A DNA stretch of 7,119 nucleotides from assembly GCA_026985515.1 (NCBI GenBank), contig JALSQH010000261.1:1-7119 (forward strand), in the 5' to 3' direction. This document shows, one piece after another, positions 3,084 to 5,788 of this stretch. This stretch comes from a bacterium (GTDB lineage Bacteria > JALSQH01). Under the pieces are notes generated by a model. That model did not search any database. It saw only the letters and a program-made list of their open reading frames with translations, and was not told the origin of the DNA. How positions within the stretch are numbered: the stretch's first letter is position 1; every line of letters starts with the position of its first letter. The position numbers and the translations under genes were made by a program.

Positions 3084-4049
3084 TCAATCTTCATATGGAG
3101 TGGAGGGAGTTCCTTCCCTCCCCTTCACTTTAAAATCTAAAAGACCTTCTCTTTTACCCATGATAAAAGCGATCAGAATAAGGACAGCTTCAGCTACAGT
3201 GATCATTACCCTTGTCATAAGGGGGAAAAAAGAGGAAAAACCAAGTGAATATCCAAGAACCTTGTGAAGAAACCATGTGTTGACACCCTCTCTGATCCCC
3301 AATCCTCCCGGAGAAAAAAGCGCTATCCAGCCAATAAACCATGACACATAAAAGCTCATCGCAATTGCCAGGGATTCTCTGAAAGAAACTGGATATATGG
3401 AAAATAGAAGTAAATAAAACGCAACCCATCCAATGAAATCAGCCACAAGAAGAGCAAGATACCCCTTAATAAGATACTGATAATAATCTCCAAGATAGGT
3501 TTTAAATACAACAAATAAAAGCGTAAGAACCCCCCCCAGGCTCATGACCACTATGTTTAATGAATTTTTATACAATCCATAAGCTATTCCTGAAAAGGTT
3601 ATTATTCCAAGGATTGAGGCTGTATAAAAGATAAATGTTAGAAGTGCCGCTTCTTTTGGTTTTATGTTGAATTTCTGCAGAAGACCCACCTGGGCAACAT
3701 AACTCCATATCTTCCCCGGAAGATACTTTCCTAACTGAGAGAAGTAAAGAATTATAAAAGCATCTTTGAATGTTGCTTTCCCCTTTGCAATAACAACCTT
3801 CCAGCTATAAGCAAGTCCAAGATCATAAATGAATAAAAAAATAAAACTCAAAATTAAATACCATCTTTTTGCTGAAAAAAATTTATCCCTGATTTCCCAG
3901 AAATTTGTCGCAGCAAGATAAACAACGTAACCGATCAGCAATACAGAGAAAATAAAAAAGAACACCCGCACAGAGCGGGTGTTCCACCATGGTACTTCTC
4001 TATTCTTCACTTTTTCTATTTCTTCTCCTTTTCCTTCATCTCCTTCCAT
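3084..4049 (-). CDS. Flippase-like / lysylphosphatidylglycerol synthase TM-domain membrane protein (UPF0104 family)
   Basis: A polytopic inner-membrane protein of 321 residues with about seven or eight hydrophobic segments, roughly at 28-47, 64-82, 134-159, 164-183, 196-217, 226-245 and 282-298. Family signatures are GKYLPGKIWSYVAQ at 107-120 and SPGGLGIREG at 246-255, which match the LPG_synthase_TM/UPF0104 (YbhN-like) family. Members are linked to lipid or glycan translocation, but the substrate here is unknown; there is no catalytic aminoacyl-transferase domain. The start is uncertain. ATG 4049 overlaps the upstream ligase gene by 34 nt and has no Shine-Dalgarno. GTG at 4010-4008 (308 residues) lies 5 nt after the ligase stop, with AAGGAG 14 nt upstream. 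Odd features: an intrinsic-terminator-shaped sequence covers codons of about 23-34, and a G8 run covers codons 171-174. It is probably co-transcribed with the fatty acyl-CoA ligase. Confidence 0.85.
   Translation of the reverse strand: MEGDEGKGEEIEKVKNREVPWWNTRSVRVFFFIFSVLLIGYVVYLAATNFWEIRDKFFSAKRWYLILSFIFLFIYDLGLAYSWKVVIAKGKATFKDAFIILYFSQLGKYLPGKIWSYVAQVGLLQKFNIKPKEAALLTFIFYTASILGIITFSGIAYGLYKNSLNIVVMSLGGVLTLLFVVFKTYLGDYYQYLIKGYLALLVADFIGWVAFYLLLFSIYPVSFRESLAIAMSFYVSWFIGWIALFSPGGLGIREGVNTWFLHKVLGYSLGFSSFFPLMTRVMITVAEAVLILIAFIMGKREGLLDFKVKGREGTPSTPYED
3102..3121. terminator. Candidate weak hairpin near the convergent gene junction
   Basis: GGAGGGA at 3102-3108 and TCCCTCC at 3115-3121 form a perfect 7-bp stem with a 6-nt loop, starting about 20 nt past the enoyl-CoA hydratase stop. 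It lies inside the 3' end of the opposing flippase-like gene, since only one base separates the two stop codons. No clear T run follows on either strand (plus side continues CCTTCACTTTAAAAT), so efficient intrinsic termination is uncertain. It is the only obvious candidate for ending the plus-strand operon near its last gene. Confidence 0.25.
3530..3537 (-). repeat. Homopolymeric G8 tract (C8 on plus strand) inside the flippase-like gene
   Basis: Eight consecutive C residues on the plus strand read as CTG GGG GGG GTT (Leu171-Gly-Gly-Val174) in the gene. Such runs are prone to slipped-strand length change, and a change of one base would frameshift the second half of the protein. In this copy the frame is intact. 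Whether the length varies in the population cannot be seen here, and the run could also be a site of sequencing error. Confidence 0.6.
3949..3984 (-). terminator. Intrinsic (Rho-independent) terminator after the fatty acyl-CoA ligase, embedded in the flippase-like gene
   Basis: Read on the minus strand, the arm GAACACCCGC (3984-3975) and the arm GCGGGTGTTC (3969-3960) form a perfect, GC-rich 10-bp stem with a 5-nt loop TCTGT. The stem is followed directly by TTTTTT, A, TTTT (3959-3949). This is the classic form of a Rho-independent terminator. It begins 31 nt past the ligase stop codon. It also encodes residues of about 23-34 (NTRSVRVFFFIF) of the flippase-like protein. Ribosomes that initiate on that gene would pass through and melt the hairpin, so it may act as a translation-dependent attenuator rather than a simple end point. 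On the plus strand no T tract follows, so it is one-directional. Confidence 0.7.
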
Positions 4050-5788
4050 TTCAGATAAATGGGATCCTTTTCCACAAGAAAACGATGCATCACCTTACCA
4101 ATAAGATTTTTGGGCAGCTCATCTATAAATTCGATGTATTTTGGAACTTTATATGGAGCCATGTTCTTTTTGCACCACTCGATGAGCTCATTTTCAGTTA
4201 TCTTCCCCTTATATTCATCCTCAAGAACCACCCATGCCTTTATTATTTCTCCTTCTTTACCCTCAAGATCTGGTAAACCTGCAACAGCCACCTCATGGAC
4301 TGCTGGATGATCAGCAATCAATGTTTCCACATCAGCCGGGAATACGCTGTAGCCCTTATGTTTGATCAGCTGTTTCTTTCTGCCCGTGATTTTAACCCTT
4401 CCAAGTTCATCCATTGTACCAAGGTCACCTGTTAGAAGCCACCTTTTGCCGTCAATTTCTTTTATTGTTTCGGCTGTTTCCTCAGGGTTCTTCAAATATT
4501 CCTTCATTACCTGAGGTCCTGCTACCCACAGCTCTCCAACCTCACCTGGTGGCAACTGGTTACCATTTTCATCAGCAATTTTCCAGTCAGTTCCCGTAAA
4601 TGGGAGCCCGATGGTTCCCGTGGTTCTGATACCGTAAAATGGTCCTGCACTGACAACAGGTGAGGCCTCTGTCAATCCATATCCCTCAACAAGCTTGGCT
4701 TTAACTTTTTCTTCAAACTTTTCCTGAACCTGCCTGTGCAACGGACCGGCACCGGAAACGGCAAGAAGGAGTTTCTTATTGATGCCTGTATTTTCTATTC
4801 CAGGGTAATCTGCAAGACGCTGGAAAAGAACCTCCGGCCCAAGATAAATTCCACTTTCATCAGGTACAACTTCAAGAACTTTCTTTATAAATTCCTCTGT
4901 TGATGGCGGTCTGGGGAATAGCATCATACATCCACCAAAGGCAAAGGATATGTTCATTACAGTGGTCATTGCAAAGGAGTGGAAAAGAGGAATTACACCT
5001 ATGGGACACATTCCAGGCTGAGCTTTAAACATCCATAATCTGCTCTGAATGGCATTTGAAACAAGGTTGAAGTGAGTCAGCACGGCTGCCTTTGGAACTC
5101 CTGTGGTTCCTCCAGTCATGATATAAACCGCTGGATCTTCAAACGGGTCTATTTCCACCTCTGGAACACTGGGAGAAGCCTTAAAAAGATCCATATACCT
5201 TATATGCTTGACATCAACTTTACCGGTGGGTATTTTCTTTAGCAGTTTTCCCAGAAATTTCTTAAAGGAAGGCATGAAATCTGCAATGTTCGTGACGATT
5301 ATATGGTCAAACTTATGCCTGTCCAGTATTGGTTTCACAGTCGTTTCAAACAGGCTGTCAAGAAGCACTATGCCTTTTGCACCTGTTAATCTCACCTGGT
5401 GCAATATCTCCATCGGCTTATAAGTGGGATTAATCCCCGTCACAATTACACCAAGCAGTTGAGCAGCATAGTATGATATAACATACTGAAAACTGTTCGG
5501 AAGTAACAGTGCAAGTACATCGCCCTTCTTGTATCCCAGTTGATGAAGAGAATTTGCCATTCTCCTTGTATAGTCCCAGAATTCTCTGTATGTCATGTAC
5601 TGATCAAGAAACCATATTAAGTTCTGATCAGGCCACTTTTCCACAGCTTCCCTGGCAAATTCTCCAAGGGATTTTAGCGGAAAGTCGTAATTCTTTGGGA
5701 CCTCATCTGGCCAGCCTGCTTCTTTTTTAAACCAGGGACGATCTTCCGGTACATAGAACATCTTTCTCAAAGTTTCCCTGTCGATCAT
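4016..5788 (-). CDS. AMP-forming long-chain fatty acid-CoA ligase (ANL superfamily)
   Basis: The 590-residue protein is of full length for an acyl-CoA ligase. It activates a fatty acid with ATP to acyl-AMP, then transfers it to CoA, releasing AMP and pyrophosphate. Core motifs appear in order: phosphate loop TGGTTGVPK at 225-233, PLFHSF at 267-272, GYGLTEASP at 369-377, TGDLG at 453-457, the hinge and C-terminal entry GRVKITGRKKQLIKHKGYSV at about 463-482, and the catalytic lysine of the A10 motif, Lys565 in NLIGKVMHR. There is no membrane helix or signal peptide; the enzyme is expected to be cytoplasmic or membrane-associated. The exact chain length is not determined; a medium-chain or aryl substrate is possible. 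The strong site AGGAGGTG (minus strand, 5802-5795) sits six bases before ATG 5788. It follows the VKOR gene by 57 nt and is followed by an intrinsic terminator. The C-terminal tail is Lys/Glu-rich, as is the start of the overlapping next gene. Confidence 0.93.
   Translation of the reverse strand: MIDRETLRKMFYVPEDRPWFKKEAGWPDEVPKNYDFPLKSLGEFAREAVEKWPDQNLIWFLDQYMTYREFWDYTRRMANSLHQLGYKKGDVLALLLPNSFQYVISYYAAQLLGVIVTGINPTYKPMEILHQVRLTGAKGIVLLDSLFETTVKPILDRHKFDHIIVTNIADFMPSFKKFLGKLLKKIPTGKVDVKHIRYMDLFKASPSVPEVEIDPFEDPAVYIMTGGTTGVPKAAVLTHFNLVSNAIQSRLWMFKAQPGMCPIGVIPLFHSFAMTTVMNISFAFGGCMMLFPRPPSTEEFIKKVLEVVPDESGIYLGPEVLFQRLADYPGIENTGINKKLLLAVSGAGPLHRQVQEKFEEKVKAKLVEGYGLTEASPVVSAGPFYGIRTTGTIGLPFTGTDWKIADENGNQLPPGEVGELWVAGPQVMKEYLKNPEETAETIKEIDGKRWLLTGDLGTMDELGRVKITGRKKQLIKHKGYSVFPADVETLIADHPAVHEVAVAGLPDLEGKEGEIIKAWVVLEDEYKGKITENELIEWCKKNMAPYKVPKYIEFIDELPKNLIGKVMHRFLVEKDPIYLKWKEMKEKEKK
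4025..4030 (-). promoter_or_regulatory. Possible ribosome binding site for a GTG start of the flippase-like gene
   Basis: AAGGAG on the minus strand lies in the last codons of the ligase gene, 14 nt before GTG at 4010-4008. The spacing is longer than the 5-7 nt used by most other genes here, so support is moderate. It is still better than ATG 4049, which has no purine-rich site in the preceding 17 bases. If used, initiation would be coupled to termination of ligase translation. Confidence 0.35.

Follow-up and report, generated by a model that had tools for sequence, protein, structure and literature searches.

The first codons of a gene for a flippase-like membrane protein carry a GC-rich hairpin with a U-tract directly behind it (3984-3949, minus strand), located just after the stop codon of a fatty-acid--CoA ligase gene. 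Both genes lie in the window analysed here, which spans all 7119 bases of contig C261 from a draft genome of 2.36 Mb. We regard the element as real and probably functional; its parts are ordinary and their arrangement is new. On balance, the evidence leans somewhat towards a working intrinsic terminator of the ligase gene that doubles as N-terminal codons of the flippase-like protein, which would then be expressed by read-through transcription only.

The ligase-flippase junction and its hairpin

The upstream gene (4016-5788, minus strand, stop codon TAG at 4018-4016) encodes an AMP-binding long-chain fatty-acid--CoA ligase. The protein matches PF00501 (4.5e-72) and PF13193 (1.3e-18), and its matches to the NCBIfam long-chain-fatty-acid--CoA ligase models fall under the curated cut-offs. 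The downstream gene is located on the same strand (3084-4049) and encodes a flippase-like multi-pass membrane protein related to LPG_synthase_TM, with 321 residues in the longest open reading frame, starting at ATG 4049. The protein itself has no Pfam match even at an E value of 10, PF03706 (LPG_synthase_TM) included, and no NCBIfam match. Proteins encoded in other genomes can be aligned with it over the full length and share its motifs LGxYLPGKxW and PGGLGxREG; four out of five scanned homologues match PF03706.

Depending on the start codon, the two genes overlap by 34 nt (ATG 4049) or are 5 nt apart (GTG, 4008-4010). The GTG is preceded by AAGGAG at a long spacing of 14 nt, and the likely Shine-Dalgarno motif, GGAG, stays unpaired with a probability of about 90% in the folding ensemble. 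GTG 4010 is probably the true start rather than ATG 4049, and ribosomes leaving the ligase stop codon could re-initiate there. The homologue alignments span the first transmembrane segment (TM1), whose start is encoded by the T tract, which shows that the hairpin region is coding. The first in-frame start past the hairpin, TTG 3941, would halve TM1, which the homologues keep whole; the true start must therefore lie at or before the hairpin. The terminator is found inside the first codons of the flippase-like gene because this gene overlaps or abuts the ligase gene.

The stem-loop (3960-3984, minus strand) has the sequence GAACACCCGC-TCTGT-GCGGGTGTTC, with ten perfect base pairs in a GC-rich stem (eleven if the outer G.T pair is counted), a 5-nt loop, and a folding energy of -18.6 kcal/mol. 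It is followed by the U-tract T6-A-T4, TTTTTTATTTT (3949-3959, minus strand), which encodes the residues FFIF at the start of TM1. The original prediction had described this stem, loop and tract, 31 nt past the ligase stop codon, and a base-by-base check agreed with it. Its placement of the hairpin wholly within codons of the flippase-like gene was also borne out: counted from ATG 4049, the stem corresponds to codons 22-30 and the tract to codons 31-34, and counted from GTG 4010, the stem corresponds to codons 9-17. At 31 nt past a stop codon, a stem is too far away to be covered by a ribosome that is sitting on this codon.

The segment 3984-3949 thus has the form of an intrinsic terminator, a GC-rich hairpin with a U-tract directly behind it, and it is one-directional because the plus strand lacks a T tract. 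The fold z-score of the region is -3.1. Terminator strength was expressed as a d'Aubenton-Carafa type score d. The window hairpin reached a d of 52.7, which is above 25 out of the 26 ordinary post-stop terminators of the same genome (median 16.8). This score, together with the alignment of homologues through TM1, agrees with the earlier view that the hairpin looks like the ligase terminator and encodes membrane protein at the same time. Only two out of 4000 synonymous recodings of the flippase-like protein gave an equally strong terminator, a result that stands out for a single gene but is not decisive alone because a genome of such size has many genes.

A search of the genome for a second copy of the hairpin, allowing up to three mismatches, found none, and the reading as a repeat element was dropped. 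The Rfam search of the hairpin gave no match. No alternative antiterminator fold was found for the hairpin segment. An early fold, in which the U-tract might pair with the Shine-Dalgarno region, was dropped, as the partition function of a shorter segment gives this pairing a probability of only about 10%.

The window hairpin is known from one genome. In the one other genome of the phylum that was compared, the ligase contig stops at residue 547 and the flippase contig starts at residue 254, and the orthologous junction falls within the assembly gap between contigs C138 and C47 (JALTID01). No flippase gene was found in close relatives among the genome contigs searched, nor does one follow the ligase gene in Deltaproteobacteria and Bdellovibrio-labelled bins, whose ligases are about 60% identical to that of the window.

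Predicted terminators in early codons of other genes

The search for comparable elements covered 1.27 Mb (54%) of the same genome, in 140 stretches with 1166 genes from home-made gene calls. Strong hairpins were defined by a folding energy of at most -14 and at least six T in eight positions, on the sense strand within genes, and the null was given by within-gene synonymous shuffles. In the first 45 codons, five strong sense terminators were observed against 0.23 expected, and the outcome was unchanged when the scan was repeated using 100 shuffles. Counting mismatch-free stems only, three were present against 0.05 under synonymous shuffling. The remainder of the genes fits chance, with two observed against 1.7 (mismatch-free, one against 0.5-0.6).

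All three mismatch-free cases, the window hairpin among them, belong to genes with a co-directional stop codon at most 40 nt upstream, and none was found in genes without a close upstream stop. All three are located 15-33 nt past the stop codon of an overlapping upstream gene. The d values of the other two are 48 and 21, and every other early match has a d below 10. The genome-wide count (3 vs 0.05) is stronger evidence against chance than the recoding of a single gene.

Both sister cases are found in lipoprotein signal peptides. The terminator in L054 (11474-11500, plus strand) belongs to a gene for a SurA-like peptidyl-prolyl isomerase, where it is found in the signal-peptide codons; the start of this gene overlaps the stop of the previous one in ATGA. 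The terminator in L029 (16654-16680, minus strand) has a perfect 11-bp terminator-like stem, and its lipoprotein gene likewise overlaps an upstream lipoprotein gene via ATGA; this lipoprotein has no ortholog in the relative genome. As in the window hairpin, the U-tract of both is supplied by U-rich codons for a hydrophobic segment at the N-terminus.

The SurA-like gene of L054 has an ortholog in another genus of the same family (L170), with about 41% amino-acid identity, and the element is present at the same codons. The two elements read TGGGGGAGCTCATTGCTGGCTCCTCCA-T8 and TGGAGGAGCTCGTAGTGAGTTCCTCCA-T8, with 28 out of 35 nt identical across stem and tract and the T8 kept. The changes in the stem keep or improve pairing (G.T to A-T, G-C to G.T, T.G to T-A). 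The stop-to-stem distance is 33 nt in L054 and 31 nt in the ortholog, and d is 48 and 52.5, respectively. Nucleotide identity between the two is owed in part to the common residues EL..SSIFF. None out of 4000 recodings of the ortholog protein matched its observed strength. From this comparison of one genome pair, the conservation of the L054 element appears to be the best evidence for selection keeping embedded terminators.

A lineage-wide version of this idea would be that selection shaped the N-terminal hydrophobic segments of overlapping genes into dual-coding terminators, with U-rich Phe, Ile and Leu codons as the U-tract, holding the exported or membrane protein at a low ratio to its upstream neighbour. 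We put this forward tentatively, as a possibility on which the doubts outweigh our confidence.

Two further matches received less weight. The very stable stem in the nuoD gene of L121 (16932-16964, plus strand) is located near the gene start and has a broken T tract; it encodes the conserved GPxHPSTHGVLR motif, and is likely protein-constrained. No NuoD was found in the relative genome. The L106 case, with a poor tail, a d of -11.8 and no ortholog, was excluded or down-weighted. Strong hairpins lacking a T tail are also two to four times over-represented in the first 45 codons in comparison with synonymous shuffles. Part of the background excess is therefore not related to termination, and over-extended ORF starts or general 5' structure may explain some of the excess of early hairpins.

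Coupling of transcription and translation, and alternative readings

Ordinary terminators of the genome follow the stop codon closely, with a median stop-to-stem distance of 7 nt (n=29, L029-L168). The purine excess of the genome's genes is 0.098, and a rho gene is present. Short stop-to-stem distances and purine-rich genes have been linked in the literature to an RNA polymerase that runs ahead of the ribosomes (PMC7858274, PMC13323073). The median of 7 nt and the purine bias suggest that transcription and translation are uncoupled in this genome, which belongs to a little-known phylum. In E. coli, terminators located less than 100 bp into a coding region are efficient; one placed 30 bp past the AUG of a second ORF, behind another gene, retained most of its efficiency, and translating this ORF cut termination by only about 10% (PMC4824070).

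Under the preferred reading, hairpin and U-tract would end most ligase transcripts in vivo, while the U-tract doubles as Phe and Ile codons of TM1. Read-through by some polymerases would produce a bicistronic mRNA of ligase and flippase-like gene. The amount of membrane protein would thereby be set to a small and constant share of the amount of ligase, with little relief by ribosomes and largely independent of translation. The arrangement also has a cost, since terminated transcripts lack the stop codon of the second ORF. In E. coli, a terminator in an efficiently translated ORF leads to non-stop mRNA, and such transcripts roughly halved the expression of the upstream reporter (PMC4824070). 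Non-stop mRNA from an efficiently translated ORF should be selected against, and we count this against a fixed terminator; inefficient initiation at the second ORF would lessen the cost.

The original prediction had gone further and proposed that a ribosome starting on the flippase-like gene would melt the stem. In such a translation-coupled attenuator, prompt initiation would keep the stem open and poor initiation would lead to termination. The overlapping genes would suit it, as a start 5 nt past the ligase stop makes re-initiation plausible and puts the beginning of the stem near codon 9. The ampC/frd attenuator is a natural parallel. In another, pyrBI, the attenuator lies inside a leader-peptide gene (PMC4824070). 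Nevertheless, the nearly identical geometry in E. coli lost only about 10% of termination upon translation (PMC4824070), the genome bears the signatures of runaway transcription, and no alternative fold was found, which makes this reading unlikely. The small effect in E. coli and the runaway signatures therefore favour a mostly fixed terminator over a switch opened by translation. What is retained of the proposal is a probable reduction of flippase expression relative to the ligase, and what is not supported is its dependence on the gene's own translation initiation. The embedded terminator is probably a genuine means of lowering the output of the second gene, and not a switch driven by translation.

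We give no greater credence to a reading in which the terminator ends the ligase transcript only, and the membrane protein is made from its own promoter or from a mis-assigned start past the hairpin. A strong terminator directly after the ligase gene is in keeping with this, and a weak promoter-like match (TTGAGT-18-TATGAT, 3851-3822) is present within the flippase-like gene. However, the window has no more promoter-like matches than expected by chance, the stretch from the ligase stop to the hairpin yielded no good promoter, and the late start at TTG 3941 meets the objection from TM1 given above. Least probable to us is that the stem is a functionless chance palindrome and the T tract merely the Phe and Ile codons of TM1. 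The protein sequence does predispose to it: transmembrane segments tend to be encoded by T-rich codons, the residues NTRSVRVF favour such a palindrome, and 5% of the recodings reach a folding energy of -10 or lower. Such hairpins also occur at chance level elsewhere in genes. Against chance are the excess of strong mismatch-free cases, which are all at operon junctions, and the conservation of a counterpart, at a different gene, in a second genus; moreover, a hairpin of such strength should terminate even if it arose by accident.

Relation to known systems

Intrinsic terminators inside operons are known to set unequal expression of neighbouring genes, and partial termination at the ligase-flippase junction would likewise lower the downstream gene. 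Such terminators are usually located in non-coding gaps, whereas the one in the window lies entirely in downstream coding sequence, where it also specifies the beginning of a transmembrane helix. The closest match in layout is the W48 construct of Li et al. 2015, with tR2 placed 30 bp into the second ORF (PMC4824070). It has the same order of stop codon, second start, and terminator less than 100 bp into the ORF. W48 was engineered; the arrangement described here is natural and recurrent in one genome, with one sister case conserved between genera.

In the pyrBI and ampC/frd attenuators, a terminator likewise overlaps or adjoins translated codons and is open to control by ribosomes. As the ORF is homologous through TM1, the window terminator also lies within translated codons, the position that characterises the pyrBI and ampC type. 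However, the codons are those of a leader peptide in pyrBI and ampC, and those of a real downstream protein in the window, where we see no sign of a regulatory signal or pause. RNA 3' ends have also been mapped within ORFs, and thus inside coding sequence, in E. coli and Borrelia (PMC7815308, PMC10319736). Many of these ends depend on Rho, result from processing or lack a known origin, in contrast to the canonical hairpin and U-tract at an operon junction found here.

The control of gene ratios in operons has usually been sought in intergenic gaps, and premature terminators are surveyed in the regions that precede start codons, which is where a large survey placed its candidates (PMC2965389). 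In a limited search, we found no literature on terminators recurrently built into signal-peptide or first-transmembrane codons of overlapping genes. If strong terminators are indeed located in early codons of downstream genes, with hydrophobic N-terminal segments supplying the U-tract, a type of operon control has gone unnoticed in compact genomes. It would bear on how such genes avoid non-stop mRNA, and on whether nascent RNA is protected by ribosomes in an uncultured phylum with signs of runaway transcription.

Terminator-like stems are found within the flippase-like gene at its beginning and at its end. The second stem, GGAGGGAGTTCCTTCCCTCC (3102-3121, plus strand), is located within the last codons of the gene and belongs to a convergent enoyl-CoA hydratase-like gene. 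The flippase-like gene (3084-4049, minus strand) is also slightly pyrimidine-rich, with a purine excess of -0.02 compared with an average of about +0.10 for the genome's genes. Given runaway transcription and Rho, it may be prone to Rho-dependent termination too.
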